Positions 30,283-54,079 of a stretch of 64,000 nucleotides of DNA are shown piece by piece. Each line of letters begins with the position of its first letter. Position 1 is the first letter of the stretch. The notes beneath the pieces were generated by a model. That model did no database searches, had not been told where the DNA came from, and was given only the letters and a program-made list of their open reading frames with translations. A program made the position numbers and the translations under genes. Source of the DNA: Hyphomicrobiaceae bacterium (GTDB lineage Bacteria; Pseudomonadota; Alphaproteobacteria; Rhizobiales; Hyphomicrobiaceae); assembly GCA_022844275.1 (NCBI GenBank), contig JALHMB010000008.1, forward strand, positions 248,001 through 312,000, written 5' to 3'.

Positions 30283-30527
30283 GGGACCTCCGTCCGAGGT
30301 GGGCCTTTCGACGCCAGTAGGACGGCACGATAAGGTGATTTATGTGGCGGCAGTCGGAGGAGAGGCCGGGAACCAAGCTGCAGAAGCACTGAGCGTGTAT
30401 GGCGCTCAGCTTCCTACGGGCGACCGGAGCGGTTTCGGAGTGCAAGGTCAGCGCAGAGGGGCGGTGTGTCCGAGCTGCATTCGACGTCCCTTCCAGATGG
30501 AAGGAGTCGGCCATCAGTGTTCCTAAA

Positions 30528-30572
30528 TGGAGCGGGCGATCGGGATCGAACCGACGACATTCAGCTTGGGAA
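30528..30572 (-). repeat. att site: 3' part of tRNA-Gly(CCC)
   Basis: On the minus strand this stretch is the 3' 45 nt of a tRNA. It runs from anticodon loop TTCCCAA through stem GCTGA, T arm GTCGG-TTCGATC-CCGAT and acceptor strand CGCCCGC to the CCA end at 30528. The expected 5' half (GCGGGCG, D arm) is missing, and identity stops at the anticodon loop, exactly where tyrosine recombinases often cut. The integrase begins 160 bp away. It is therefore best read as the duplicated attachment end of an integrated element. The intact tRNA-Gly should lie at the other end, beyond the window. Confidence 0.85.
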
Positions 30573-30734: not shown

Positions 30735-32012
30735 ATGGCCAAATTTCTGCGCGCAAAAATCACCAAGTCGCTCATCGATGGACTGTCCCCGGATCAGCAG
30801 GTGCGTGACACCGAGATCAAGGGCTTCGGCGCTCGTCGCCGGCAAAAGACAGTCACCTACTTCCTCTTTACGCGGGTGGCCGGGCGACAGAGGCGTATCA
30901 CCATCGGCGCCCACGGCAGCCCCTGGACCGCCGACACTGCGCGCAAGGAAGCCAGTCGGCTCCTTCTAAGCGTACGCACCGGCAACAACCCCATTCTCGA
31001 GCGCCAGGCCGCCCGCGCCAAGCAGATGACCTTTCAGGAACTCACCGAACAGTTCTTGGAGATTCACGGCCCAACGCTCAAACCGTCGACACTTGTCACC
31101 TACACGGACTGCATCGAGTTGCGGCTACGCCCGAAGTTCGGCAGCAAGCCCATCAATGAAATCACCCACCAGGACGTGGCCAAGGCCCACATCTCCTGGC
31201 GGGAACACAAGACGGCGGCCAACAATGCGCTGACCTGCCTCTCATCCATCTTCGGCTGGGCCGAAGACCAGAAACTGCTGCCCAAGCACACCAACCCGTG
31301 CCCGGACATCAAGCGCTACAAGACCTCGAAGAAGGAACGCTACCTTACGCGCGAGGAACTGAGACGGCTTGGCGATACGCTCGACGACTGGGAAGCGAAC
31401 GGCAAGATCAACATCTATGCGGCCTTTGCCATCCGCCTGCTTATCGTCACCGGCGCGCGCTTCCGCGAAATCCTCACCTTGCAGTGGGCCAACATCCACT
31501 GGGAGCACAGGGTGCTCCAACTTCCGGACAGCAAGACCGGCTTCAAGTACATCTTCCTCAATGACTATGCACTGGCCGTCCTCAGGAGCATTCCGCGTCT
31601 CTCAAAGAACCCTTACGTCATCGCCGGCAAGAAAGAGGGGAGGCACTTCGTCGGACTGACCAAATGCTGGTACGGACTGCGCGCTGCCGCTGACCTCAAC
31701 GACGTACGCATCCACGATCTGAGGCACTCGTTCGCGTCATTCGCCATCACCCTTGGCGGATCGAACATCCCGGTGCTCGGCCGTGTGCTTGGTCATTCCA
31801 ACCCGGAAACCACGGCGCGCTATACCCACATCGCCAAAGACCCAGCGGCGGCCATCGCTGACGCCACTGGCAAAGAGCTTGCGCTCATCATGAACCGCGA
31901 CTTCCGTCTTCCTCGCGCGCGGCCAGTCTACGTTGCGCGCTATACCGTCGCTCAACGCATTGCGAAGGCGCGACGAATGCGGAGAGACCGCAGAGTTCTT
32001 ACTTTGACGTAG
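30735..32012 (+). CDS. int: Tyrosine recombinase / phage-type integrase
   Basis: A 425-residue site-specific recombinase that should catalyse integration and excision at tRNA-Gly. It has an N-terminal Arm-binding DUF4102-like region (1-95), a core-binding SAM-like domain (about 98-180) and a catalytic domain. Catalytic residues are visible: R242 in TGARFREIL, H327 and R330 in HDLRHSFAS, H354 in LGHSNPETT, and Y363 in ARYTHI. A basic C-terminal tail (about 395-425) is extra. The gene starts beside the att fragment, as expected for an island integrase. Confidence 0.95.
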   Translation: MAKFLRAKITKSLIDGLSPDQQVRDTEIKGFGARRRQKTVTYFLFTRVAGRQRRITIGAHGSPWTADTARKEASRLLLSVRTGNNPILERQAARAKQMTFQELTEQFLEIHGPTLKPSTLVTYTDCIELRLRPKFGSKPINEITHQDVAKAHISWREHKTAANNALTCLSSIFGWAEDQKLLPKHTNPCPDIKRYKTSKKERYLTREELRRLGDTLDDWEANGKINIYAAFAIRLLIVTGARFREILTLQWANIHWEHRVLQLPDSKTGFKYIFLNDYALAVLRSIPRLSKNPYVIAGKKEGRHFVGLTKCWYGLRAAADLNDVRIHDLRHSFASFAITLGGSNIPVLGRVLGHSNPETTARYTHIAKDPAAAIADATGKELALIMNRDFRLPRARPVYVARYTVAQRIAKARRMRRDRRVLTLT

Positions 32013-32040
32013 CGCCGTGAGCGGCGAGCAGGATCTTCTC

Positions 32041-32169
32041 CTAAGTCCACATGTAGGCTGCTCCTAGCGAGATGCCGGCGATGGCCAAACCCCAATCGCT
32101 GTACGCCAAAAGATAACCCGCGAGCACGAAGCATCCGGCGGCGATGAAACGCATGGAGATGTGCAACAT
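32041..32169 (-). CDS. Small hydrophobic protein, 42 aa
   Basis: The ATG at 32169 follows an excellent GGAGG ribosome-binding site. The product is almost entirely hydrophobic (about residues 5-40), with a Tyr-Ser-Asp-Trp turn in the middle, consistent with a membrane hairpin. It ends 29 bp from the integrase stop. Similar tiny membrane proteins are common and unassigned. Confidence 0.5.
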   Translation of the reverse strand: MLHISMRFIAAGCFVLAGYLLAYSDWGLAIAGISLGAAYMWT

Positions 32170-32259
32170 AAAGATCCCTCCACCTCGGCAATGAATGAAG
32201 GGTGCCGGCAGGTCTGGCGAGAGTATGGCGCTCGGGTTCGTTGACCACAGGCTGGGCAA

Positions 32260-32439
32260 TCACGAGGTGCCGCAGTCAATGATGCAGGCACCTTGACGAC
32301 ATTCACGAATTGATTTCTCTTCAATGTGCATACCTAGAACGGTGCAGGCTTCGGCCGAGATACCATCGCCACGGAGCAGCTTCTGCCCGCAGGGGATGCT
32401 GCGATCGTGCAGCGCGACCGCCTTTACTGGCGTCAGCAC
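32260..32439 (-). CDS. Possible small cysteine-containing protein, 59 aa
   Basis: A leftward frame with a GTG start. The product has five cysteines (including SIPCGQK, EACTV, RECRQGAC and IIDC) and a balanced composition that looks protein-like. There is no clear ribosome-binding site and no signal peptide, so it may be a fragment or a chance frame. It fills most of the gap between the integrase and the peptide/ligase genes. Confidence 0.3.
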   Translation of the reverse strand: MLTPVKAVALHDRSIPCGQKLLRGDGISAEACTVLGMHIEEKSIRECRQGACIIDCGTS

Positions 32440-32570
32440 TAAACGGACGACTGATCAAGACCCATCTTGTTGAGCTCAGCTAAGTGTGACATCAATACTG
32501 CTCCATATTGAAGACGCGTTGACTGCGAAAACCTTTGTGCTTCAACCTCGACCATTGTCAGGGAGTTGTT

Positions 32571-32744
32571 ATGTCAAAGAGTTCGCTTCCCAGCATCGAA
32601 GACCTGAGCAATCAGCTTCTGAACGTATTGCCATCCGCCACGGACTTTGCGCGGGCAGTGCAAAGGATCAATGAGAATAAGGCGGCGATACACGGCCTTA
32701 AGCCGGATCGCATGATCGTGACCGGCTCATCAATGGAGAAATAG
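32571..32744 (+). CDS. 57-aa peptide, candidate precursor or carrier for the adjacent biosynthetic island
   Basis: ATG 32571 follows GGGAG at a good distance. The 57-residue product begins MSKSSLPSIEDLSNQ, has an amphipathic helical first two thirds (about 6-40) and ends with a basic-hydrophobic PDRMIVTGSSMEK tail. It has no cysteine and no signal peptide. It lies 55 bp before the PaaK-like adenylate-forming enzyme on the same strand and near two radical SAM proteins. It therefore has the size and setting of a RiPP precursor or a small carrier. I do not recognise its family, and a regulatory role is equally possible. Confidence 0.55.
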   Translation: MSKSSLPSIEDLSNQLLNVLPSATDFARAVQRINENKAAIHGLKPDRMIVTGSSMEK

Positions 32745-32799
32745 GTACCGTATTCGGGTCACGGGCTCTTGGATTGCTTGCTGAGTGGCGGAGCGGGCC

Positions 32800-34143
32800 A
32801 TGCATGAAGATTTGCTAAGTTTCCAACGAAGGGCAATTGTTGCAACGCTCGGCAACGCGTTGAAGCACCCGCTGTATAGGGAAAAGTGGCAAGGCTCGTT
32901 GGACAAGTTCGGTTCCCTTCTGGGTGATGCTGACCCGTTCGATATTCTCGCCGACCTGCCGTTGACAACAAAGTCGGATCTTCAGTTCAGATTGCCGCCG
33001 GCTCTGGAAGCTTCCGATCAGCTGGCATCAATCATCTTCACCACAGGCTCGACCGGTCCCGTCACATACCGCTATCGCAGCGCGAAGGAGCTGCGAGAGA
33101 TCCGGCGTTACGGGATGGAGGTTGTGCAAACCGTAAGGCCTCGGCAACGACGTCCTTTAGCATTCCTGTTGTACGGTCCCTATCATGGGCAAGCCGTGAT
33201 CAATGGTGTCGCCGACTTCGCCCCGTACTATTTTGCCGGAGCAATCTGGGAGGACATCTTTATCAGGCAGGGCGTTGAGTTGCTTCAAAAGACCTTCGAT
33301 ATCCCACATCTGGAGTCCCGCGTGACCCAGATTCATGGTGCGGTAAGGCTGCTGAGGATCTTCACTCAGGCGCTGATTGATATGCGCGTCAACCCTTCGG
33401 AAATGGCCGTAGAGTCACTCGTCAGTTTCGCGGGTTTTCTGCCCAGCGAGACCAAGAGTTTTCTCAAGGCGTATTGGAACGTTGAGCCTGTCGATATCTT
33501 CTCAATGTCCGAGATGTTAGGAGGTGCCACAAAGTGCCCGTCTTGCGGGTCTCTCAGCTTCGACGCGCAGCTCGTGCCCCACGTTTGTGCCCTCGACGGA
33601 CAGACAGAGGTCGAGGAAGGGATTGGCCGCCTCGTTTTGACAGAACTCCTGCCGTTCGGATTGTGTCAGCCATTGGTGCGATACTACAATGGTGACTTGA
33701 TCCGGGTGGAGAACGGGCCGTGCAGTGGATGCGGGCAGACGCGACGCATGATCCATGTAGGAAGGGACAATGAAAGTCCCATCATTCCCCACAAGGAACG
33801 GCAATTCGTTGCGTTGGCATCTAGCGATCTCAGGGAGGCTGTCTACTGCGAAGCGGTGGCCCGAACCGTCGAATTCCCCCATCTCAAGCTGCTGAAAGAT
33901 CGAGAGAGCCATTTGGGCGTCCCCCTTGTCGGAATGAGTGTGGATCGCTCGGCATCCCCTCCCAAAATCGTTGTCACATTCAAGCCTAATGAACAGTATC
34001 TCGATACGTCCGCAGCGCGCGTCGAATATCTGCACGAGAGATTGATGAGCACCTCGCCTGAACTGACGTACGCTGTGCGCAACAATCGCGTCGCGCTTTC
34101 CGTGGTGAGCGACAACAGCTTTTCCAAGCCACTCTGGAAATAG
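32800..34143 (+). CDS. PaaK-like adenylate-forming enzyme (phenylacetate-CoA ligase / F390 synthetase family)
   Basis: A 447-residue cytoplasmic enzyme, expected to activate a carboxylate as acyl-AMP. ATG 32800 was preferred over GTG 32785 because of the GGCGGAG just upstream. The nucleotide-binding loop FTTGSTGPVTYRY is at about 80-92, the aromatic/metal region DIFSMSEMLGGATKCPSCG is near 234-252, and CSGCGQTRRMIHVGRDNE, the PaaK-type hinge with extra cysteines, is near 303-320. The paired Cys motifs suggest a bound zinc. It converges with the radical SAM operon (43 bp between stops). The substrate could be the upstream peptide or a small acid. Confidence 0.8.
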   Translation: MHEDLLSFQRRAIVATLGNALKHPLYREKWQGSLDKFGSLLGDADPFDILADLPLTTKSDLQFRLPPALEASDQLASIIFTTGSTGPVTYRYRSAKELREIRRYGMEVVQTVRPRQRRPLAFLLYGPYHGQAVINGVADFAPYYFAGAIWEDIFIRQGVELLQKTFDIPHLESRVTQIHGAVRLLRIFTQALIDMRVNPSEMAVESLVSFAGFLPSETKSFLKAYWNVEPVDIFSMSEMLGGATKCPSCGSLSFDAQLVPHVCALDGQTEVEEGIGRLVLTELLPFGLCQPLVRYYNGDLIRVENGPCSGCGQTRRMIHVGRDNESPIIPHKERQFVALASSDLREAVYCEAVARTVEFPHLKLLKDRESHLGVPLVGMSVDRSASPPKIVVTFKPNEQYLDTSAARVEYLHERLMSTSPELTYAVRNNRVALSVVSDNSFSKPLWK

Positions 34144-34186
34144 CGCACAAGCAAGAGGACTTTGCGAATGATTGACAGCTCGATCT

Positions 34187-35437
34187 TCAGTCGCCGTCAC
34201 GAGTGACAGTCCACTCTTTCAGGCGAACGGTGCCAGGGCTCGCCTGAACAATACTTTCGATTTCGGAATTCGTGTAACCGGCGCGCTTCATTGCCTGTTT
34301 GTCTACGGGATACTTCCGCGCCCCTGTGATCGCCTCTGGCGCAATCCGGAACCATGTCTCCAACGCATCCTGGACCACAGCCTCCACTGCGGCATCGTTC
34401 TGTGAACATAGGACTCGAAGCCACCGATTTCCGATTTCAACATGCGAAATCTCTTCGACGTAAATGATCCGCTCGACGTCAGCGAGTTCGTGTTGCCCGG
34501 CTTCGTCATAATAATGAATGCGCCATGAGGCCGAATTCACGCCGAGCGTCTCGCCGATGCGTTGATGGATCGCCAGTCGCAATGGGAGTTCCTTGTCGTG
34601 CGTTAAGGCCCACATCGCACTTCTATCGGAGAATGAGCCAATGTCGAAGTGCCGATCCCGGAGAATTCGAATGCACGCTTGGGCGTGCCTCGACTCGTCA
34701 GCCGCCTGGCGCGCCATGTCAGCGATGAATGCGAAAGGCATCCCTGAGGAGCAGGCAATGTTGTGCGCGCAAGCTTCTATCGTTGGGACTTCCGTGCTGA
34801 TGAGTATGCGATGGTAGCGCTTCGCAATTTCGTATTCGGGGTCGTTGGGCCCGTCCTCGTCGTCTTGCAACTGCCTTCGCTTGGATAGCCTGAAATCCTC
34901 AGAAAGTACGCTGGGAGTTTCATGCCAGACCCACTCCTTGTGGGGGAGCTCACGATCGAGAGCGTCTCTCAGGCGCTCATCCGCGCAGAGGGCCTTCAGT
35001 GCGCTCGTGAGATCAACGAGCATCCGTTGCGCGTTCTCTATGACTCTGAAGGACGGCGAATCGAGGCAGTACCTGACCTGACTGACAGCTGACTGACCCG
35101 ATGATTCGATGAAATTGCACACAGCGGAAAGTTCCGCAGATATGAAGTCCAAGCATTGGCGACACGTGACAATATTCTGTGGGAAGCGTTCATAATCGTG
35201 GCGCAGCGGGGATATGATCGGTGTCGCCGTGCCGGTCCTGATCCTTGCTATGCGGTCACTGACCGCGCATATGGCGTCCGCCAAGTCTGCAAGATGCTCT
35301 CCAAGGCACAGTTTTACTTCAATGACTGGCACCTGAACGCTGAGCGAAGCACACATCAATAGCGTTTTGCTTAATCCCTCGGAGAGCCGTTCCAGTCGCG
35401 GCACCGAGTGTTCGAACCAGTAGCCGGCATGTGACAT
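34187..35437 (-). CDS. DUF455 ferritin-like (probable di-iron) protein
   Basis: A 416-residue protein. ATG 35437 was chosen over an upstream TTG. The C-terminal half carries the DUF455 pattern: STEVPTIEACAHNIAC, then DMARQAADESRHAQACIRIL, and later YVEEISHVEIGNRWLRVL. These give E, E-x-x-H and a second E-x-x-H, the ligand set of ferritin-like di-iron enzymes such as MiaE-type hydroxylases and AurF-type N-oxygenases. The N-terminal ~180 residues are helical and not recognised. It is the last gene of the seven-gene leftward operon and may hydroxylate or otherwise oxidise the pathway intermediate. Confidence 0.75.
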   Translation of the reverse strand: MSHAGYWFEHSVPRLERLSEGLSKTLLMCASLSVQVPVIEVKLCLGEHLADLADAICAVSDRIARIRTGTATPIISPLRHDYERFPQNIVTCRQCLDFISAELSAVCNFIESSGQSAVSQVRYCLDSPSFRVIENAQRMLVDLTSALKALCADERLRDALDRELPHKEWVWHETPSVLSEDFRLSKRRQLQDDEDGPNDPEYEIAKRYHRILISTEVPTIEACAHNIACSSGMPFAFIADMARQAADESRHAQACIRILRDRHFDIGSFSDRSAMWALTHDKELPLRLAIHQRIGETLGVNSASWRIHYYDEAGQHELADVERIIYVEEISHVEIGNRWLRVLCSQNDAAVEAVVQDALETWFRIAPEAITGARKYPVDKQAMKRAGYTNSEIESIVQASPGTVRLKEWTVTRDGD

Positions 35438-35458
35438 ACGCAAGCCCCACAATGTCTG

Positions 35459-36208
35459 CTAGTCCCCATACGTCAGGGCGGCTGATCGCTGAACCTGTCG
35501 CCGCGACCAACCGAGCCATGCGTAGAGGGCTTCGGCCAGGTCGTCGATGTTGTCCCTTGCTCTCTTGAAGCACATCGCCGTGCCCCCGGTCTCGCGAAAA
35601 GCGGCGCAATTGTCCTCGCGGTCATCGATCAGGACGGCTTCTGCGAAATCCAGTCCGAAATGGCGAAGCGTTGCGCCGAAAAATTTCTCGGGATTCTCGG
35701 CTTTCAGCACGCCAACATCACTTGAGCACACCAACCCATCGCAGAACTGCGCCCACTCGCGCAGCCGCAGCGCCCTCTGATTAGGAGCAGGCCTTCGCCG
35801 ACGGGCCAGCGATGCTTGAAAGGCAGTTGCGAAACAATCCATGTTGTCAGTCGCCAAGATGACCGGGGCCAGCCATCGGACATCGTGCAAAACACTGACG
35901 AGCTCGGCATCGACGCTCATCGTGGCGCAGTCATCCACCAGGCGTCGGGCGACGAAGTCCTGACCATAACGCCCTGCGTTTGAGAACCCCATTCGGGCTA
36001 TGACGTCAGCTGATGTGTCGCCGCCCCGCATCCAGCGTTCCAGCGCGTGCTGCTCGGAGAACATATTCTCGACTGCATTGCCCAGGCGGGGTTTAAGAGG
36101 ATGGGAAGCCGCGCTCAATATCGAAGACCAGAATGGTTCGTTGGACAGCACTCCATGCCAGTCCACAAAGACAATCCGCCTGAACAAAGGGATTTGAGCA
36201 TCGGTCAC
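35459..36208 (-). CDS. HAD-superfamily hydrolase-like protein
   Basis: A 249-residue cytoplasmic protein. Motif I is FVDWHGVL with the nucleophile D16. The usual second Asp is replaced (D-W-H), so phosphatase activity through the standard acid/base is uncertain. Motif II lies at LATDNMD, motif III at the Lys of GVLKAENPEKF, and motif IV at VLIDDREDN. It overlaps the upstream P-loop kinase by 4 bp (ATGA), implying a matched kinase/phosphatase-like pair, and lies 21 bp upstream of the DUF455 gene. Confidence 0.8.
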   Translation of the reverse strand: MTDAQIPLFRRIVFVDWHGVLSNEPFWSSILSAASHPLKPRLGNAVENMFSEQHALERWMRGGDTSADVIARMGFSNAGRYGQDFVARRLVDDCATMSVDAELVSVLHDVRWLAPVILATDNMDCFATAFQASLARRRRPAPNQRALRLREWAQFCDGLVCSSDVGVLKAENPEKFFGATLRHFGLDFAEAVLIDDREDNCAAFRETGGTAMCFKRARDNIDDLAEALYAWLGWSRRQVQRSAALTYGD

Positions 36209-36876
36209 TTCGGACTCTCCCCAACAGAGCTTCCGAAACGCGACCTCTCGACAAATGCCTGGATTGCGGTGCGCGCGGCGGTTTGAACATCATTGGGCGA
36301 AAGAGTGCCGTCAAGCCATTCGAGAGCTGGAACGCCCGACGCCCTGACGTCCTTGAAATAATTTTTGAACCCGCCATTGTATACTGCATCCATAAAAAGG
36401 CTTCCCGTTGGGAATTTCCCCCTGTTCCGCAGGGTCATAATATCGAGAGGAATATCCAAGTATAATATCAGATGCGGCCAGAACGACAAGTTGGCGTTCC
36501 GCAGAAGCGTTAGTGCGAGGCCGGCACAGCGGTAATTGACGAGGGGTTCGATGCCCGCGCAGTGGGCGATCAACGTGTGTAAGCTACGATCGACGATGAC
36601 TATCTGAGACGGATGTGAAGCGGCGTCCCGCGTTCGCGCGTGCTCGATCTTGACGAAAAACTCAAGGGCTGCCTGTTCCGCTGCTTCCGTGCTGGGCATG
36701 GGGTCCGGTAGGTATTTTCCACCGCCGACGAAGTCAGAGTAATCACGCACGTGTGCCATGCCGTTTTCCGCAGCGCGGATCAAGCTTCCAGTCAGGGTCG
36801 TTTTGCCGGCGCAGCAGGGCCCCTCGATCGCAATGACGAGCTTATCTGTGGATATGGCCAATTTTGCTGAATCCAT
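36205..36876 (-). CDS. P-loop kinase (thymidylate-kinase/AAA_33-like)
   Basis: A 223-residue protein. Walker A is GPCCAGKTT at about 19-27. VIVDRSLHT near 96-104 resembles the DR-x motif of nucleoside/nucleotide kinases, and LILYLDIPLDIMTLRNRGK near 139-157 matches the strand and Arg-rich lid that follow. Cys-Cys in the P-loop is unusual. It probably phosphorylates a small hydroxyl compound made by the cluster. It is coupled to the HAD gene by a 4-bp overlap and separated from the upstream transferase by 104 bp. Confidence 0.75.
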   Translation of the reverse strand: MDSAKLAISTDKLVIAIEGPCCAGKTTLTGSLIRAAENGMAHVRDYSDFVGGGKYLPDPMPSTEAAEQAALEFFVKIEHARTRDAASHPSQIVIVDRSLHTLIAHCAGIEPLVNYRCAGLALTLLRNANLSFWPHLILYLDIPLDIMTLRNRGKFPTGSLFMDAVYNGGFKNYFKDVRASGVPALEWLDGTLSPNDVQTAARTAIQAFVERSRFGSSVGESPK

Positions 36877-36980
36877 GACAAATGAGGATCTTCCAGGCGA
36901 ACGGATGGATCAAGCTGCCGGAGTGTCTCAGGACGCCGGTTGTCCACATTGCACACAGGCACATCCGCAAGTGCGGCTGA

Positions 36981-38297
36981 TCACCCCTGACGCTCGGTCT
37001 TGGCCTGGAAACTGCCGCCTACCAGGAGCTTCAAGGCCCCTACCCACCCTGCAATGCCGAATAGCGTCACTACAATCGGAAACACAACAAGCTTGCCGAG
37101 ACGGTGTCCAGGGGAGCTACTGCTCCCTAGTACCAACTCGGTAACGAGCAACTGGAACAGGAACAGACCCAGAATTGCGGTGGCGAGCAGCTGTGCCGTT
37201 GAAGTTCCGAACATTGCAACGCCGAAAAGAAGCGCAGGCATGAAGGCGCAACTCAACCACTCCAACGAGATCGCCGCCGCCGTAAGAGCGAGGGACCATG
37301 CGCGGGGGCCGCTTCTGATCGCGTCGTCGGAAAAGTATTGCGCGAACCGGGCTGGGCCCTGGAACCAGGACGCAGCCTGCTCGAACTGAGCCTGCAGGGA
37401 GGGAGGGACTTCTGCTGAATCCAAGGATGGGATCGGCACCATTGCAATATTGTGCGATCCAAGGATGAAGCTGTAGTGCATGTCTTCGAGCGGCGAACGG
37501 GCTGGAAACGGTAAGCATTTTAGCAGCGAAGCCCGAATACAGAGGCCGTGGCCGGTAACGTGCGTATAAACGTACGACGTGATAGTACGCCGCAACGGCC
37601 CCCGAAGCGCTGCGCGAGAAAGTAGTCTGGGCAGTTCGTAGGCCAATACGAACCTGTTCGCGCGAAGGGCGCCACTTTCGACGAGCATCCGACGCAGGTA
37701 TGCGGGCCCTGTCTTGTCCGCAATTTTCTTGTCACCCCGCACCTCGAAGACAGAAGATTGGTGGAAGACATCCACAGTGGGATTGTTGCAAATCGCCCGG
37801 GAGAATTCGCTCAAGGATCGCGTGGGCGGCCGAGAATCCGCATCGTACACTAGCACAAATGCGTCCTCGAAACTTTCCTGCAGCAGCTCTCTGCAGCGGG
37901 CCACGGCAAAATTCAGCTGATCGCCCTTGACGCCCAGCGGATCGTCGTAATGGAGATGAATCACTCTGCCTTCGCGGGCAAGCGTACGCGCTACTTCAAG
38001 GGTATCCGCCGCATCAGGATGGCTGGCGGCTTCGGCAACTTCTCGCTGCGTTGTGACCACGACAATGTGCGCCAGGTGTGTCCGTCTCAGAAGGTCCAAA
38101 TGATCGATTGCTGACCGAAGGATGCTGCCCTCCCGGAGAACGGGAACCATTATGATGAACTGTGGAGCGGCACGATGGCCCTGCGAGTGTTGCGTGCGTG
38201 CTGACCGCAAAAATCTCACCGCGCGCTGCACACTTAGTGACACCAAAAAGTGCCGCAGCAGCATCAAAAGTAGGGCTACATTCAACACGAGTTGCAT
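36981..38297 (-). CDS. Membrane glycosyltransferase, family 2 (GT2)
   Basis: A 438-residue inner-membrane enzyme with an N-terminal hydrophobic anchor (about 2-20), a cytoplasmic GT-A domain and three or four C-terminal membrane segments (about 328-420). The donor site shows IIMVPVLREGSIL near 48-60 and LVYDADSRPP near 149-158. TGHGLCIRASLL precedes the catalytic LEDMHYS, and QAASWFQGP stands in the place of the QxxRW motif of processive synthases. That last motif is altered, so single-sugar transfer is as likely as polymerisation. It belongs to the seven-gene operon. Confidence 0.8.
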   Translation of the reverse strand: MQLVLNVALLLMLLRHFLVSLSVQRAVRFLRSARTQHSQGHRAAPQFIIMVPVLREGSILRSAIDHLDLLRRTHLAHIVVVTTQREVAEAASHPDAADTLEVARTLAREGRVIHLHYDDPLGVKGDQLNFAVARCRELLQESFEDAFVLVYDADSRPPTRSLSEFSRAICNNPTVDVFHQSSVFEVRGDKKIADKTGPAYLRRMLVESGALRANRFVLAYELPRLLSRAALRGPLRRTITSYVYTHVTGHGLCIRASLLKCLPFPARSPLEDMHYSFILGSHNIAMVPIPSLDSAEVPPSLQAQFEQAASWFQGPARFAQYFSDDAIRSGPRAWSLALTAAAISLEWLSCAFMPALLFGVAMFGTSTAQLLATAILGLFLFQLLVTELVLGSSSSPGHRLGKLVVFPIVVTLFGIAGWVGALKLLVGGSFQAKTERQG

Positions 38298-38330
38298 CGC
38301 AACTGAGCTCGGAACACCGTCCTTGCTACC

Positions 38331-39485
38331 TTACTTCGTGCGGATCCCAGCTCGGTTGTTTAACGAGCCATCAAACTGCGTGGCAGTCAATCGGGACATG
38401 CTTAAGTGGGTGGCCCGGAGGTCTTCTGCTCCTGCGGCGTAGCGATGCTTTTCCTGATGCTGCGTGAAATGGCAAGGGTCTGATAGCTGAGCGCCGCTCA
38501 CCGGTCGCAATTCGGAGTCGCCCCAGCGAGAAAAGTACTGCGAATGCACCCCGTCACAAATGCTCCTGGCCGCGCAGGCGGTGCACGCGGAAGGGTGCAC
38601 ATAGTTATGCCGCCGCCTCTGGTGCTCGGATGCGATTGAATACCATTCCCGTATGGGGACCGCCTCTGCTTTCTGGTCGTACCAGCTGTTGTAGTCCCAC
38701 TCGTGCGGGTCGTACGGAAGCTGAAATCCCGTGTAAACATTCTTTTCGTATCCGGGCAACATGCAGATCGGGAAGTATCGAACGTTTACTTCAACGCCCA
38801 GTGACTCTCCGAGCTTAATCGCGGCTGAAAGATGAGGAGCCGCGCTGGAATGAGACACCTGAAACTCGACGTGGCCCTCCTTCGCCCATTCGAAATAGGG
38901 ATTGAATGTCAGGAAGTTCACAACCCGGGCCCCCGTCTGGGCTGCGAGTGCCACGACATCGATGAGCTGATCTAAATTGTCTTTTATTGGAACGCAGTTG
39001 AAACGGAATGGTATTCCCGCTTCTTTGAGAGCCCTTAGCGCAGTCATCTGCTTTTCGAAGTTGTCCGTGCCCCACATATGGATCTGCCGCGCAGTCGCTC
39101 CAATGCCATGGATGGAGACCAGGAAATCTCCGATGCCGGCCTGCTTGTATTTTTGGACGAGGGCGGGGTCCGCCAGATGCATGCCATGGGTTATTATCGT
39201 GGGTCGAAGGCCTATGCTTGAAGCATGGTGCACGATCTCCAGCATTCGGGGATGCAGCGTGGGCTCTCCGCCCATGAAGTCGACGAACTCATTCTTGTAG
39301 AAATATCGAAACTTGTTAAGCGCCTCAATGGCCTGCTCAAGTGGCAGCCATATCTTGTCGCGCGGGTGGATGCGGTCATCGTAGCAAAACTTGCATCGGA
39401 CGTCGCACTTGAGCCCGACCCACAAGACGCCACGACGCGTCACCTGGAGCTGCGCAGCCCCTCCGTATTCAGTCATGGCATGCAT
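38331..39485 (-). CDS. Radical SAM protein with C-terminal Cys cluster (SPASM-like), copy 2 of the island
   Basis: A 384-residue Fe-S enzyme. The [4Fe-4S]-SAM motif is CDVRCKFC (C27, C31 and C34), followed by the GGEPTLHP strand that binds the SAM amino group and LVSIHG. Three further cysteines in ACTACAARSICDG near 302-314 and one near 340 (DPCHF) resemble an auxiliary cluster site of SPASM/twitch type. Such proteins modify peptides or sugars by hydrogen abstraction. It lies 26 bp after one GT2 gene and 33 bp before another. Confidence 0.85.
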   Translation of the reverse strand: MHAMTEYGGAAQLQVTRRGVLWVGLKCDVRCKFCYDDRIHPRDKIWLPLEQAIEALNKFRYFYKNEFVDFMGGEPTLHPRMLEIVHHASSIGLRPTIITHGMHLADPALVQKYKQAGIGDFLVSIHGIGATARQIHMWGTDNFEKQMTALRALKEAGIPFRFNCVPIKDNLDQLIDVVALAAQTGARVVNFLTFNPYFEWAKEGHVEFQVSHSSAAPHLSAAIKLGESLGVEVNVRYFPICMLPGYEKNVYTGFQLPYDPHEWDYNSWYDQKAEAVPIREWYSIASEHQRRRHNYVHPSACTACAARSICDGVHSQYFSRWGDSELRPVSGAQLSDPCHFTQHQEKHRYAAGAEDLRATHLSMSRLTATQFDGSLNNRAGIRTK

Positions 39486-39511
39486 GGCTCAGAGCCCTTC
39501 AATTGAGATCA

Positions 39512-40399
39512 TTAGACATATAACTCGCGAAACCGGATCGAGCCTTGGATTGATCCAGTCCAAATTGCAATGGCCTCGGTCGCCTGCAGCAGAGCTTGGC
39601 AAGCATCCGCTGCGTCGCCTTTCGTCAGGTTGGCAAGCGCTGAAGGCGCCTTGCCGAAGGCCCCAATGAAGCGCTTGTAGGGGTAAGGATTGAGAACGTA
39701 GCGCAGACGTGTGATGTGCTTGTATTTTTTGAAAAGGAGGACCTGGTAGACCGCGTACTTGCGGAATCTGTTAAAATGAGCGGACAGCCCGGCGCGGTCC
39801 TCATGGTAGACAAGGGCGTCGGGCGCGATGCCGATCGTAGCCCCTCTCAGGCCGATCTTGTAGCAGATGTCGACATCGCTGCCAGATTCAAGATCCTCGT
39901 CGAACCCGCCAACCAATCGGATCGTATCAGAGTGGTAGCCGCAGTTTGCGCCCGCGACGTACGGGAGGTCGAGCGCCGGCAGATAAGAGACGGCGCGCTG
40001 ACCGTCACATATCGTAATGGCGTGCTTTTGCACCAGCGTCTCGGGTTGGAACTTCTCTATGGCGCCCCCAACCGCGCCGTACCTGCCAGTTTCGAGAGCG
40101 CTGAGCATCCTCCCGACCCACTGGGGCGAGGCTACGACATCTGCGTCGGTTGAAAGAACGTAAAGACCGGAGGCACGTGAGACGCCCAGGTTTCGCGCTC
40201 TTGCCATATTGCTAACTTCGAGCTGAAAGTACCTTATGGTGAGCGTAGGGTGTACCGCCACATCTGCGTGCTTCTTGCTTCCGTTCTCGACGACGATCAC
40301 CTCAAAGTCTTCTTTGGCAACGTCCTGGCACGCCAAGGAGTCTAATAGTCGATAGATGCGGTCGTCGTCCTTCACCGCAATTACCACAGTAGCCCTCAT
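39512..40399 (-). CDS. Glycosyltransferase family 2 protein
   Basis: A 295-residue soluble GT-A transferase. TVVIAVKDDDRIYRLLDSL at 4-22 and EVIVVENGS near 33-41 form the nucleotide fold, and LSTDADVV near 82-89 holds the metal-binding DxD. GGFDEDLESGSDVDICYKIG near 164-183 is the acceptor/catalytic region with the conserved acidic pair. It begins 3 bp after the first radical SAM stop, so the two are translated together. The acceptor is unknown, possibly the radical SAM product. Confidence 0.82.
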   Translation of the reverse strand: MRATVVIAVKDDDRIYRLLDSLACQDVAKEDFEVIVVENGSKKHADVAVHPTLTIRYFQLEVSNMARARNLGVSRASGLYVLSTDADVVASPQWVGRMLSALETGRYGAVGGAIEKFQPETLVQKHAITICDGQRAVSYLPALDLPYVAGANCGYHSDTIRLVGGFDEDLESGSDVDICYKIGLRGATIGIAPDALVYHEDRAGLSAHFNRFRKYAVYQVLLFKKYKHITRLRYVLNPYPYKRFIGAFGKAPSALANLTKGDAADACQALLQATEAIAIWTGSIQGSIRFRELYV

Positions 40400-40402
40400 G
40401 GC

Positions 40403-41509
40403 TTACTCGTTGAATTGGCGACACATGCTGGGTGTCAACCCGAGCGTCTTGTGTCTCGGAGCGGAGCATTTCGTGCAGAAGGGTATCCGGGCCTGATCGA
40501 ACTGCTGGTATGCGGCACTGTTCCAGACATCACGCATCGAAGAGGTCGCAACAGAGCCGACCTCGCCTTCATGAGCGATTTCAATGAGACAGCAGGGAAG
40601 CACGCGACCGTCGGGCTCAACCAGCGCATATTGGCTGGGAGACGTGCAAGCTGATTTCGCATCTGCCAGGGAAGACCAGTAAATCCCCTGGGCATAATTT
40701 TCATCTGTGTTGTCACTGGAAAAAAAGGACGCCATCACGGCCTTGGCATTCTGAGCCACAACTTCCGGAACATTGTGCTGTGCTATGACGCCATGCACAG
40801 CTGGGACGATCACATCCCTGAACTCGACAATGTCGGAGACCGTGAGCAACTCCTGGCCTGTTTCGTCGCCGTAGACGTTCATGAGGTAGATGGCGGAGAC
40901 GCCAGTATTCAGGCAATGGTCAACCAGAGCAGGAAGTTCTCGAAAATTCTGCTTCGTGATGACGGTCATGTAGTTGATGCAAAACGCAGCTTTGTGGGCC
41001 GAGGCCGACCTGACGGTTTCGATGGCGTCAAATATGGTAGCAAGAGCGTTTTTTACGCCACGGATCTTGGCGTAGAGTACCGGATCCAAGGTGTCGATTG
41101 AGAAATTCCAGCACCCGAGCCCCGCATCGATGAGCTCTTGGGCTCGGTCGAATGTGATGCGGGTTCCGACGGAGTTGATGAGTACAAAGACCCCAGGATG
41201 CTTCGATCCGGCTTTAATGAGATCCAGTATGTGCGGATAGAGAAGGGGGTCTCCGCCACTAAGTTGAAGCGTTTGCATTCCCAAGGCGGCCGCTTCATCA
41301 ATGAGCCGCAGCGCTAAGTCAAGTGGCATGTGGCCAGCATTATTCTTGCGGCTTCCTGGCATCTGGACGTTGATGGCGCGGCGCCGCTCCGCCATCAAAT
41401 CAGAATAGTAGTCCTGCCGCAGGCTGCAGTACGAGCACTTGTGATAGCAGTATAGGGTTGGCTTCAGGACGAACTGCTTCAATTGGCGGGAGGCGGGTGA
41501 GATCTGCAT
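40403..41509 (-). CDS. Radical SAM/SPASM-like protein, copy 1 of the island (first gene of the operon)
   Basis: A 368-residue Fe-S enzyme. The cluster motif CYHKCSYC (C21, C25 and C28) is followed by LQLSGGDPLLYP and FSIDTLDP, the usual SAM-binding strands. The C-terminal part has ACTSPSQYALVEPDGRVLPCCLIE and then FCTKCSAPRHK with a last Cys near the end. This matches the SPASM pattern (Cys before the beta hairpin, CC after it, CxxC later) and suggests one or two auxiliary clusters. SPASM proteins most often modify ribosomal peptides, but some act on sugars. The sequence differs clearly from the second copy. Confidence 0.87.
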   Translation of the reverse strand: MQISPASRQLKQFVLKPTLYCYHKCSYCSLRQDYYSDLMAERRRAINVQMPGSRKNNAGHMPLDLALRLIDEAAALGMQTLQLSGGDPLLYPHILDLIKAGSKHPGVFVLINSVGTRITFDRAQELIDAGLGCWNFSIDTLDPVLYAKIRGVKNALATIFDAIETVRSASAHKAAFCINYMTVITKQNFRELPALVDHCLNTGVSAIYLMNVYGDETGQELLTVSDIVEFRDVIVPAVHGVIAQHNVPEVVAQNAKAVMASFFSSDNTDENYAQGIYWSSLADAKSACTSPSQYALVEPDGRVLPCCLIEIAHEGEVGSVATSSMRDVWNSAAYQQFDQARIPFCTKCSAPRHKTLGLTPSMCRQFNE

Positions 41510-44078: not shown

Positions 44079-45380
44079 CTAGCATTTGCCGCCGGTGTTT
44101 GAGCCCAGCCCCACACTTGGAAATGGTAGCGTAGATGAAAGCTTCCACATCATCAGCCCGTCTGGCTGATATGCCCAATAGCGTCCCTCATACTTAGAAC
44201 TCCATAGTGCATTGCTGTAAGGAAGCGCGAAATCTGCGCTCAGGTATCCCATGTTGACCAGCCTTTTTGCGATGCATGGTTCAACCTTTGACAGCTGAGT
44301 GGGAAACGTCGCCAGCGTGAGCAGATCAGCGGAGAGCTTCTCCCGCTCTGTATTTAGGTACTTTTCCGGTGTCAGCACATCGGGCTTGTGGGTTGGGAGC
44401 TGCTTGATTGTCCAGTAGATGCCATTCGGAAAGCGGCGCTTGAACTCTTCCAACAGCTCATTGACTTGATTTCTTCTAAGGTGTTGTTGTGCAATGTCTA
44501 CCACGTGCTCAACTTGATCCAACCAGCTGACTGGCGCTGAGAATAGCACTGGAGGCATGCCAGCATCACTCGCGAACACCACGGTCTTATTCTCGATGGA
44601 AGTCAGGCCAAGGTTATCGATCACTCCACCATCTGTGAGTAATATTTGCTTCCGCGCATTGGCAATCTTGTCAGCGTATGATCGAGTCTGCAAACCATCG
44701 ACCCAGCTGACATCACCTGGCTCAATTTTCAACGGTGACAGGAACGGGGGAAATGCGCTTGAGCCAGCGATAGCTGTGGCAATGTCTACGTTTGGATTCT
44801 CGATATAGCCCAGAATATCATCTCCCATTCGCTCTCGAGCGAACGTCCAGATGGCGCGGGTTCCATAATTAACAGCATTGAAGTGGAAGCTAGGCTTGAC
44901 GGGCAACGCTGCCAAATTACCGGATCCAACCAGCTGCCTATACGCTCCTTTGAGTATCTCCGGTCCTTTTCGGTATGCGCGTAAGACGCTTGACCAGGTT
45001 TGGTCGATGACCGTTGTGTTGGAGAAGTTCAGGATTGGTTCCGAAATCAGTTTGTCAAAGTTAGTCGCAATGCCCGTTCCCTCATCGAACTGAAGTTGCT
45101 TCCAGCGGATAGCAAGTAGCCCAGCGATGATGGAGCCACCCGAGACGCTCGAAACGCTACGTGCGCAAGGCAGTAACCCAAGCTCATTGAGGCGCTTGAG
45201 TGACCCCAGATGAAAGAGCATAGCGCGATAGCCGCCTCCAGAGAGAGCAAGAGCATATTCTTCGGTGGGCCAACGGTCGCTTGTGCAATGAGGGGGCTTG
45301 GCCTGGGCGCTCGATGCTGAAGGCGCCATTAGCAAAACAATCATTACGCCGGCGAGGAATGCGAATAATCGTTGCCGCAT
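44079..45380 (-). CDS. Secreted patatin-like phospholipase
   Basis: A 433-residue protein with a Sec signal (1-25, ending SSAQA). The patatin catalytic dyad and oxyanion loop are intact: LSGGGYRAMLFHLG near 46-59 is the Gly-rich loop, SSVSGGSIIAG near 77-87 is the GxSxG nucleophile elbow, and LTDGGVIDN near 240-248 contains the catalytic Asp of the DGG motif. It should be a periplasmic or exported lipid acyl hydrolase. It stands alone on a more AT-rich segment flanked by imperfect direct repeats, which suggests separate acquisition. It may be a toxin-like effector, but no immunity gene was recognised. Confidence 0.87.
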   Translation of the reverse strand: MRQRLFAFLAGVMIVLLMAPSASSAQAKPPHCTSDRWPTEEYALALSGGGYRAMLFHLGSLKRLNELGLLPCARSVSSVSGGSIIAGLLAIRWKQLQFDEGTGIATNFDKLISEPILNFSNTTVIDQTWSSVLRAYRKGPEILKGAYRQLVGSGNLAALPVKPSFHFNAVNYGTRAIWTFARERMGDDILGYIENPNVDIATAIAGSSAFPPFLSPLKIEPGDVSWVDGLQTRSYADKIANARKQILLTDGGVIDNLGLTSIENKTVVFASDAGMPPVLFSAPVSWLDQVEHVVDIAQQHLRRNQVNELLEEFKRRFPNGIYWTIKQLPTHKPDVLTPEKYLNTEREKLSADLLTLATFPTQLSKVEPCIAKRLVNMGYLSADFALPYSNALWSSKYEGRYWAYQPDGLMMWKLSSTLPFPSVGLGSNTGGKC

Positions 45381-52084: not shown

Positions 52085-52651
52085 ATGGGATGGAAGAAGT
52101 GGATCGGGCCCCTCGCTTACCTGGCTGATGATCTGCAGGCCGAATTCGATGCACGGGGAAACGAGTTTTCCAAGCTTTACGTCGTGCTCTTTCACACCGG
52201 CTTTCACCTCGTCGTTCTTGTGCGCCTTCAATCGGCACTGCGGCTTATCCCGGTGATAGGGCCGGGGCTCGCCCGCGTGGTTTTCGTGTTCACGTCTATC
52301 ATACGGGGATGCGAGGTTTCGCCGGCGGCGTCGATCGGCCCAGGATTTCGCGTCGGCCATCCGCTGGGAATAGTCATCGGATCTCATGTTCGAGCCGGCC
52401 GCAACCTGACGGTGATGCATCACGTAACAGTTGGCGGGCGACGGAATGTTGGGAGTCCTCGCCCGGCCGTGCAGATGATCGGTGACGACGTGGTCATCGG
52501 CACGGGTGCCGTGCTGCTGGGCGACATCGAGATCGGCTCTAATGTCGTGATCGGGGCCCAGGCACTGGTTGTGGAGAGCGTATCCGATCGTGGCGTCGTG
52601 TTTGGCCATAAGGGCCGCGTTATCGAGAAGAAGCAACGCAGCGGCGATTGA
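52085..52651 (+). CDS. Serine acetyltransferase-like hexapeptide-repeat protein
   Basis: A 188-residue left-handed beta-helix acyltransferase. The hexapeptide repeats run from about 82 to 170 (ASIGPGFRVGHPLGIVIG, then HVRAGRNLTVMHHVTVGG and DVVIGTGAVLLG). GHPLGIVI and the HHVTVGG loop with its catalytic His resemble CysE/serine acetyltransferases. The N-terminal region has a hydrophobic patch (FHTGFHLVVLVRLQSAL) unlike the usual CysE helical domain, so it may acetylate a glycan or lipid carrier instead of serine. It is head-to-tail with the small membrane gene and overlaps the flippase gene tail to tail by 32 bp. Confidence 0.75.
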   Translation: MGWKKWIGPLAYLADDLQAEFDARGNEFSKLYVVLFHTGFHLVVLVRLQSALRLIPVIGPGLARVVFVFTSIIRGCEVSPAASIGPGFRVGHPLGIVIGSHVRAGRNLTVMHHVTVGGRRNVGSPRPAVQMIGDDVVIGTGAVLLGDIEIGSNVVIGAQALVVESVSDRGVVFGHKGRVIEKKQRSGD

Positions 52652-53855
52652 GGACGATGGCGAGGGCAAAGATTGATGCCATCATGTTCGCCCACGCCAT
52701 GCCGATAAGTCCGTGGGTAGGCACGAGTATCAAGGCGGCTAAGGGAATTGTCGCAGCAGCACAACATGACGCCATGAGGCGGACGCCATCCCGGCGGCGC
52801 GCGTAGAGGCCCATACCCGCGAGGGTCAGCGCCATTTGCAGCCAGCTTGCGGCGAGGATCCAGCATCCGGCGGCAAACTGCGCTGCAACGGATACAGGCA
52901 GCGCAAATTGCCCTACGATAACGAAGGCGACGATCGCTAAGCCGAGTTGCATGGCCATGAGCGCAAGCGCCTTAAGGCAAAGAGCGTTGAAGGCGATCGT
53001 AAACGCTTGGACACTTTCGTGGGCGGCCGCGATCAGGGACGAACGGGCGGGGAAGACGAATGCTGAGTTGACGAGCGTGGACGCCGCATTGGCAAACTGC
53101 AGGAAGAACACGTAGACACCTGTCGCTTCGATACCCATCAGAAGGGTGATCAGATATCGGTCGCTATGGTCCCTGGCCGTGTTTAAGAGCTCATGCAGAT
53201 AGATGGCGCGACTTTCGATGAGCAGGCGTCGGGCCCATCCGATGGTTTGTTTGACCGAGGGTGGTTGCAAGCGCTCTGCCGCTGACCAATTTAGTACCGC
53301 AACTGTAAGTGTCGCTGCGGCACTCCACGAGAGAAGCAGGCCATCTAGGCTTCGCCACGACGGCTCGAGGGTCGAGATGATCATGAACAACGCGGCCGAG
53401 CCAATGGTGTATCCAAGCGTAAGCCAAGCAGCGGCGCGGGGCTTGCGCAAAGCGAAGAGGATTTGGGTGGCATCGGCTATGCGCTGCTCGCAGTAGATGA
53501 TCCACACCACGCAAAGGGTGATAACTGGCGTTACTCCGGCAAAGAAGGCCGCGCAGATGATGGGGATGGTGAGCAAGCAATAGCCGAGCGCAACGAAGCT
53601 GCGATAGAGGCTCAGCTCCTTGCGAGTCGACGCTGCATCAAGAAGAGCGAGCTCCCGAAGCAGTGCATTGAAAACGCCGCCCCGCAGCAGAATTGGCCCC
53701 GCCAAGCTCGCACTGACAATGAGGCCATACCAGCCAAGGACGTCCAGTCCGACTACGCGGGCAAGATAGATTGTTAGTGCGAATTTGGTGGCGAGCGCAC
53801 AGCCGCGCGTAAGAAGCAGCTCCGTGACGCGCCAGTATCTCTTGCTTAGGCGCAC
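52620..53855 (-). CDS. Polysaccharide flippase-like membrane protein (Wzx/MATE superfamily)
   Basis: A 411-residue membrane protein with about 10-12 hydrophobic segments. GTG 53855 with AAGAGGGG upstream was chosen, since the longer frame adds an Arg/Pro/Cys-rich stretch of 50 residues with no membrane pattern. The start LSKRYWRVTELLLTRG and the paired-helix layout match Wzx-type flippases that move lipid-linked sugars across the inner membrane. Its 3' end overlaps that of the acetyltransferase, suggesting the two were acquired together as glycan-modifying cargo. Confidence 0.75.
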   Translation of the reverse strand: MRLSKRYWRVTELLLTRGCALATKFALTIYLARVVGLDVLGWYGLIVSASLAGPILLRGGVFNALLRELALLDAASTRKELSLYRSFVALGYCLLTIPIICAAFFAGVTPVITLCVVWIIYCEQRIADATQILFALRKPRAAAWLTLGYTIGSAALFMIISTLEPSWRSLDGLLLSWSAAATLTVAVLNWSAAERLQPPSVKQTIGWARRLLIESRAIYLHELLNTARDHSDRYLITLLMGIEATGVYVFFLQFANAASTLVNSAFVFPARSSLIAAAHESVQAFTIAFNALCLKALALMAMQLGLAIVAFVIVGQFALPVSVAAQFAAGCWILAASWLQMALTLAGMGLYARRRDGVRLMASCCAAATIPLAALILVPTHGLIGMAWANMMASIFALAIVLNRRCVASSR

Positions 53856-54079
53856 TTGATTGGCCCCTCTTGAGGGCGAACATGACGGTGAGGGGGCCCG
53901 GTCGCAAGGGAGGTGGGAAAGAAATGGGCAACGTCGAGCGAGAGGCCAACGGGCCATAGCGCAGCGCCCTGCGCGAGCGCGCAACGCGATGTCATCCATG
54001 AGCACGTCAAGGCACGAGCGCAGCGAATAGGTGGGCTAATACTTGCGACCCTGAGAAACAGCGGGAGGAGGTCAGCCAG

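Follow-up and report, generated by a model that had tools for sequence, protein, structure and literature searches.

A cluster of nine genes (positions 32571-41509) on an integrative element was analysed within a window of 64,000 nucleotides from a Hyphomicrobiaceae bacterium (assembly GCA_022844275.1, contig JALHMB010000008.1, positions 248,001 to 312,000). Two genes on the plus strand encode a peptide of 57 amino acids (aa) and a PaaK-like adenylate-forming ligase, and seven convergent genes on the minus strand encode two radical SAM proteins (rSAM1 and rSAM2), two family-2 glycosyltransferases (GT2), a P-loop kinase, a HAD protein and a DUF455 protein. We tentatively propose, as a reading that falls somewhat short of probable, that the cluster enzymes would build a small sugar- or nucleoside-type product and that the ligase would join it to the 57-aa ribosomal peptide, which would serve as a carrier or conjugate partner. 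Such a carrier logic may be comparable to that of the LysW-type amino-group carrier proteins (AmCP) and of the pearlins.

In this proposal the two GT2 enzymes, the kinase acting on a small molecule, the HAD phosphatase, both radical SAM proteins and the DUF455 protein as a diiron enzyme would build and tailor the small molecule. The ligase would adenylate a carboxylate, with no coenzyme A (CoA) thioester being made. The best guess for that carboxylate is the side chains of Glu residues because the peptides of related loci have Ala/Glu repeats; in those relatives the small molecule would be loaded on the repeated Glu and then released by S8 peptidases. The action of the ligase on the peptide, the choice of carboxylate, the class of small molecule and the order of the steps are what we infer from the sequences.

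The ligase subfamily and its upstream peptide

The peptide gene (32571-32744, plus strand), a candidate carrier or precursor, is an open reading frame (ORF) with its own ribosome-binding site, AGGGAG, five bases 5' of the ATG. It lies directly upstream of the ligase gene on the same strand with a gap of 55 bp, the position seen in ligase relatives, and its product has no family match in Pfam or NCBIfam. The ligase gene (32800-34143, plus strand) probably starts at the ATG at 32800, which has GGAG six bases before it, though a GTG at 32785 is possible. Against NCBIfam the ligase matches the DVU_1553 model at 1e-11 and the PaaK model at 6e-10, both below their cut-offs (25.8 bits with PaaK, cut-off 646), and Pfam AMP-binding matches at 0.057, also below cut-off.

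When the ligase was scored with a subfamily model built without it, it reached 236 bits, and ordinary PaaK loci (n=63) reached at most 103. With a model of ordinary PaaK it scored 85 bits, while the 63 sequences of that model score at least 300, a match by construction. Most of the tested loci are themselves in the subfamily alignment (A4), so only leave-one-out scores are fair, and by these the cluster ligase is the lowest of 16 with L049 next (248). The tested subfamily ligases score far below the cut-offs of PaaK-type models. By these sequence models the cluster ligase is a member of a distinct PaaK-like subfamily.

Relatives of the ligase on plasmids, at 29-30% identity, come from Rhizobium leguminosarum, Aminobacter, Mesorhizobium and Roseibium, and all five of the plasmid records read have a small ORF immediately before the ligase gene. 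A five-sequence alignment searched against 84,980 species returned 14 loci, including four from Nocardiopsis and others from Myxococcus, a Micrococcales and an Acidobacteriaceae bacterium. At 1e-10 the ligase profile matched 82 of 398 phylum genomes and 94 of 385 class genomes (the cluster's own genome included); the two sets overlap, and four candidates were scored per genome. Besides the cluster itself, L114 (G494), L115 (G594), L116 (G1000), L117 (G1086), the L049 genome and L124 were examined further, and the remaining matches, which scored up to about 66 bits, were counted as ordinary PaaK. L116 and L117 are ordinary PaaK as well (79 and 78 bits). L124 is the second ligase of the L049 genome (G1037); it scored 92.7 bits in the profile scan and is intermediate, with 116 bits for the subfamily model versus 121 bits for the ordinary model.

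A small ORF was found directly upstream of the ligase in 17 of 18 usable subfamily loci (13 from the species scan, L012-L015 and L036), the exception being L047. One further locus, L050, was dropped from an original 19 because its contig ends 158 bp upstream. The 17 upstream ORFs encode 59-234 aa with an Ala+Glu content of 24-50%, at least 30% in 16 of them. An automatic pick found an ORF with 26-46% Ala+Glu in 15 of the 18 loci, and the picked ORF had at most 24% in the 63 ordinary PaaK loci, which represent 61 distinct genes (L088/L116 and L089/L117 are the same) and most of which have less than 1.5 kb of upstream sequence (almost none for L008, L009 and L109). The ORFs of L042 and L043 were chosen by eye because an extended ligase frame hid them from the automatic pick; L043 is the weakest, as its Ala+Glu content (24%) equals the top control value and its gap depends on where the ligase is assumed to start. 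The 18 loci are not independent, since L013/L015/L038/L040 are alike, L014/L036 are nearly identical and four are from Nocardiopsis; our own grouping gives about 11 groups, 10 of them with the ORF. Silent changes exceeded amino-acid changes per site in all seven ORF pairs measured (for example 0.81 versus 0.17 for L013/L038). Peptides of eight relatives were tested against curated families and all stayed below the cut-offs, and among the literature matches listed, in which few subscription papers were covered, none described the pairing of a PaaK-like ligase with a ribosomal peptide. The first-pass annotation had placed the peptide and the PaaK-like enzyme in one unit, and recurrence of the pair in distant genomes supports this, although the cluster peptide is atypical. 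At L046:2794-3441 and L048:9189-9890 the peptides contain 24 and 21 AE pairs in AAEP-type repeats, and their ORFs overlap the ligase by 4 bases.

In 6 of the 17 loci the ORF and the start of the ligase gene share 4 bases. Such tight coupling would also fit a small ORF whose product assists the ligase structurally or in regulation, for example as a stabilising subunit, and is not its substrate; the ligase would then make a CoA thioester or an amide of a small acid. We regard this as very unlikely. The variable length (59-234 aa) and repeat number would be odd for a subunit, and S8 peptidase genes near the ligase in L013, L014, L015 and L036 point to cleavage of the peptide.

Neighbouring genes and the type of product

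In L013 and L015, on R. leguminosarum plasmids, the ligase is accompanied by FolE, QueC, QueE, the nitrile hydratase alpha subunit, IMP dehydrogenase, PurA- and PurB-like proteins and an S8 peptidase; we take this neighbour set to be that of the toyocamycin/sangivamycin pathways. These two loci thus hold a 7-deazapurine gene set, an S8 peptidase, an Ala/Glu peptide and a PaaK-like ligase, and the ligases and peptides of L038 and L040 are alike. Further partner genes at ligase relatives are PurH with SAICAR synthase, AIRS with HisG, and a carbamoyltransferase with a GT2-cytidylyltransferase. At L037:9217-15794 an Ala/Glu peptide, a PaaK-like ligase, a TruD-like protein, a methyltransferase, a ribonucleotide reductase-like protein and a HAD protein are encoded in a row that looks like a C-nucleoside pathway. 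Heptose genes, DegT and a radical SAM gene lie near the ligase in L012 (Roseibium). Among the more distant ligases, L114 is accompanied by AIRS, adenosine-deaminase-like, APH, HAD and radical SAM genes, and L124 (L124:235-7463) has an upstream radical SAM gene related to rSAM2 (6e-11) and further unannotated genes. Since several ligase relatives stand beside nucleoside or sugar genes, the peptide may serve as a carrier rather than being the modified product.

The remaining cluster genes are all on the minus strand. rSAM1 (40403-41509; PF04055 1.3e-21, SPASM 7.4e-13) is followed by a GT2 related to the mycofactocin glycosyltransferase MftF (39512-40399; Pfam GT2 8.7e-19, TIGR03965 119.6 bits, cut-off 280), rSAM2 (38331-39485; PF04055 1.7e-19, phrog_27238 1.3e-21, with a further C-terminal Cys) and a membrane GT2 (36981-38297; PF13632 1.5e-8). 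The next gene encodes a P-loop small-molecule kinase that resembles thymidylate and deoxynucleoside kinases (36205-36876; AAA_28 3.6e-5, below the Pfam cut-off, dNK 3.4e-4, phrog_761 thymidylate kinase 2.3e-10). It is followed by a HAD phosphatase-like protein (35459-36208; Pfam 0.044, below cut-off) and a DUF455 ferritin-like protein (34187-35452 from a TTG, with an ATG at 35437; PF04305 1.8e-24). The latter has two ExxH motifs (ESRH and EISH) and is a putative diiron enzyme. The translations also show a Walker A motif in the kinase, CxxxCxxC in both radical SAM proteins and DxD-type motifs in the GT2s, the motifs by which these families are known. In the HAD protein DWH replaces the usual DxD, and together with L033 and L020 it forms a subgroup with DWH or DWY at this place.

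The nine ORFs, their order and strands, the intergenic gaps of 3, 26, 33 and 104 bp and the 4-bp overlap given by the first-pass annotation were all correct, as was its gap of 21 bp, which the DUF455 ATG at 35437 reproduces. Its family names were also borne out, clearly by Pfam for both radical SAM proteins, both GT2s and DUF455, which Pfam and NCBIfam recognise as they do the integrase, and more weakly, by matches below cut-off, for the kinase, HAD and PaaK-like proteins.

On a Nocardia plasmid a HAD gene (37-38% identity) adjoins a homologue of the membrane GT2 (26%, E 7e-18), with a P-loop kinase nearby, another glycosyltransferase and a nucleotide-sugar dehydrogenase; this P-loop kinase has no BLAST match to the cluster kinase at 0.01, and the Pfam family alone is common to them. 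A HAD from Nonomuraea is closer (44%), with no other cluster homologue within 10 kb. Homologues of the kinase lie among glycosyltransferase genes on Streptomyces and Rhizobium plasmids, in Rhizobium next to a HAD gene. Relatives of rSAM1 (E 3e-25 for one) occur on two Streptomyces plasmids with DegT, HAD, glycosyltransferase and Gfo/Idh genes, neighbourhoods that presumably resemble the NtdABC kanosamine set. The radical SAM protein of the Roseibium ligase locus L012 is likewise related to rSAM1 in its SPASM part (E 3e-6). For rSAM2 the nearest solved structure is cytosylglucuronate decarboxylase (BlsE, 3e-11), and its nearest plasmid relative is a radical SAM protein encoded beside PqqD and further radical SAM genes. 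The cluster partners thus look sugar-type because there are two GT2s, rSAM2 is nearest to BlsE, and HAD and GT2 are in common with Nocardia; taken together, the enzyme relatives give a tentative indication of a small molecule of sugar or nucleoside type.

The Streptomyces loci L018 and L019 share an rSAM1-related gene followed by a hypothetical gene (amino-acid-kinase-like in L018), Gfo/Idh, glycosyltransferase, HAD and DegT genes, by gene content a second recurring sugar-type cluster. On an Indioceanicola plasmid (L022), three radical SAM genes and a PqqD-like gene lie close to TIR and SIR2 genes.

The same cluster enzymes could be those of a classic ribosomally synthesized and post-translationally modified peptide (RiPP), in which the 57-aa peptide would be the precursor, the SPASM radical SAM proteins would modify it, the MftF-like GT2 would glycosylate it and the PaaK-like ligase would acylate it. 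A SPASM domain, an MftF-like GT2 and a short peptide with its own ribosome-binding site are indeed present, and radical SAM genes also lie beside the ligases in L012, L048, L114 and L124. However, no PqqD or RiPP recognition element was matched at E up to 1 in the ten proteins tested (Pfam can miss such elements), the peptide and PaaK-like genes are on the strand opposite to the radical SAM genes, the peptide has no Cys, and the ligase loci L037-L050 have no homologue of the cluster radical SAM or GT2 proteins. We therefore consider a RiPP unlikely. A glycosylated, radical-modified peptide, which the first-pass annotation suggested alongside a small molecule, may be the product, but with nucleoside or sugar genes beside several ligase relatives the peptide may instead be a carrier.

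One caveat of the carrier proposal is that several observations weigh against it. The cluster peptide is not rich in Ala and Glu (14% versus 24-50% in the 17 relatives), it has no AE pair, and in a set of 54 ORFs of at least 40 aa at 30800-36100 no other one exceeds 22% Ala+Glu. The choice of Glu side chains is weakest for this peptide because it has only three Glu. It aligns to the other peptides at 3-19%, and without Ala/Glu repeats and with such poor alignment, only its position supports equivalence. Among the relatives, AE pairs were above shuffling (at most 25 of 500 shuffles) in 7 of 17 peptides only, L047 has no such upstream ORF, and no such ORF lies beside the more distant ligases L114, L115 and L124. 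The one Nocardiopsis locus that is annotated (L039) has flavin oxidoreductase, alcohol dehydrogenase and regulator genes and no nucleoside or sugar genes. The eight cluster proteins other than the ligase have no homologue at E 0.01 in L037-L050, and the nine-gene cluster has no protease, unlike L013-L015 and L036.

A broader version of the carrier proposal, which we think doubtful, is that bacteria of several phyla use small ribosomal peptides to assemble nucleoside- and sugar-type natural products, or export such products in conjugated form, with a dedicated PaaK-like ligase loading the many Glu side chains of the peptide. The present cluster would then have diverged from the others, having few attachment sites and a new sugar pathway. 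If this is true, the peptide-ligase pair would be a genetic flag for peptide-conjugated nucleoside or sugar metabolites that are missed by present family models. The pair hints at an undescribed form of natural-product assembly on a ribosome-made carrier.

The mobile element and recurrence of the cluster

The cluster is carried by an integrative and conjugative or mobilisable element, as integrase, tRNA-end repeats, relaxase and coupling protein are all present. A 46-bp direct repeat at 30527-30572 (minus strand) corresponds to the 3' end of tRNA-Gly, the attachment site, and is identical (100%) to a right copy beyond the window (G000:C8:329874-329919). An intact tRNA-Gly(CCC) has the right copy at its 3' end, which gives the element a length of about 51.3 kb and takes it past the window. 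A repeat search of the genome gave a third, partial match (32 bp, 91%) on another contig. The tyrosine integrase (30735-32012, plus strand) matches Pfam Phage_integrase (9.4e-20) and Arm-DNA-bind_3 (5.4e-8), and the relaxase (58789-59808, minus strand) matches PF03432 (2.8e-32). A type IV coupling protein, a replication initiator, ArdC and a ParA-like protein are also encoded. Horizontal movement of the pathway, as suggested in the first-pass annotation, is therefore supported by the integrase, the repeats, the relaxase and the coupling protein. Its remark that the segment is more AT-rich than the chromosome holds against the left flank (56.2% GC in the cluster versus 62.8%) but not against the 1.6 kb of right flank that were read (56.4%); the whole element has 58.7% GC. 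A phage origin was considered and rejected, with no PHROG for the peptide, ligase, DUF455 or GT2 proteins and no ligase relative in viral contigs. The element also encodes a patatin-like phospholipase (44079-45380) and, in an AT-rich stretch, an 830-aa protein with a weak AAA_16 match (55332-57824).

A Wzx-like polysaccharide flippase is encoded on the element at 52623-54005 (minus strand; PF01943 25.8 bits, cut-off 28.2) and is a possible exporter for the pathway, the link being unproven. The flippase would also fit a surface-glycan or capsule modification system, with the membrane GT2, the MftF-like GT2 and a CapK/PaaK-type enzyme making or decorating a polysaccharide for export by the flippase. 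Two of three GT2 relatives examined, from 48 records matched, lie in polysaccharide-type loci (L120 and L121, not L119). However, two radical SAM proteins, a nucleoside-kinase-like protein and DUF455 are unusual for capsule loci, and the flippase, itself below its cut-off, lies 11 kb from the cluster. A glycan role thus seems distinctly unlikely.

No second copy of the nine-gene set turned up in the genomes and plasmids searched, which were sampled family, order, class and phylum genomes and plasmid records; the genome searches are samples with only a few candidates scored per genome. The ligase had partial matches (25-31% identity) in 7 of 102 other family genomes, and the HAD protein weak partial matches in 9 of 396 other order genomes (best 1.3e-5). 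At 1e-20 none of 326 other class genomes matched the membrane GT2, and at 1e-10 none of 338 other phylum genomes matched the kinase. When each of the nine proteins was compared by tblastn with 72,556 plasmid records, relatives reached at most 44% identity, and the peptide gave one chance-level match (E 5). The plasmid neighbourhoods that were read, out of the records matched, were 5/11 for the ligase, 2/2 for the kinase, 4/4 for HAD, 2/4 for the membrane GT2 (one unannotated), 2/81 for rSAM1, 1/89 for rSAM2, 3/48 for the GT2 and 0/8 for DUF455. The best shared sets were the small ORF with PaaK and, on a single Nocardia plasmid, HAD with membrane GT2 close to a P-loop kinase. Recurrence of at least five of the families in unrelated genomes, which the first-pass annotation had named as support for a system, was not found in the searches made, and of its interpretation overall it is mobility and the peptide-PaaK unit that are supported. 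Its statement that no known pathway combines all of these families agrees with our results, as no described cluster matched and mycofactocin, nearest by one gene, fails the cut-offs.

Comparison with known systems

The likeness to mycofactocin lies in a short peptide, a radical SAM protein and an MftF-like GT2 in one locus. However, the MftF-type GT2 reaches 119.6 of 280 bits and the radical SAM proteins 42.7 and 32.1 of 265 bits with MftC, and the identification was rejected. No MftA-type (NCBIfam) match was found for the peptide, which ends in SSMEK, no MftB match among the ten proteins tested, and no other mycofactocin proteins among the nine. Assignments of the radical SAM proteins to pyrroloquinoline quinone (PQQ), viperin or heme types were all far below cut-offs, and an anti-phage role was rejected, the models giving only generic viperin-like matches of these proteins. 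The sugar-acting BlsE type is nearest to rSAM2 among solved structures, yet the BlsE model gives 49.9 bits with a cut-off of 400.

AmCP ligases are ATP-grasp enzymes. The ligase here is PaaK-like, the peptides of its subfamily have Ala/Glu repeats, and the cluster peptide is without repeats. The peptide also has no Pfam or NCBIfam match to the AmCP (LysW) zinc domain with its C-terminal Glu, contains no Cys and ends in MEK. The proposed likeness is a ribosomal carrier peptide joined to a small molecule. As outlined in PMC9303977, AmCPs of the LysW/ArgW type (LysW, Vzb22) serve lysine, arginine and natural-product pathways, and the gamma-carboxylate of the carrier's C-terminal Glu is activated and joined to the amine of a small molecule.

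The same paper (PMC9303977) describes pearlins (3-thiaglutamate, 3-thiahomoleucine; PEARL ligases) as small molecules built on a ribosomal carrier peptide and released by proteolysis; the tmo pathway includes a radical SAM enzyme. A ribosomal carrier peptide and a radical SAM enzyme would be the features in common, whereas no lantibiotic-dehydratase (LanB-like) Pfam match was found among the nine proteins and the ligase here is of the ANL/PaaK type. By sequence models the ligase shares its fold family with PaaK, DVU_1553 and the BagE/FevW ligases; it is far below every one of their cut-offs, and the leave-one-out models place it in a separate subfamily.

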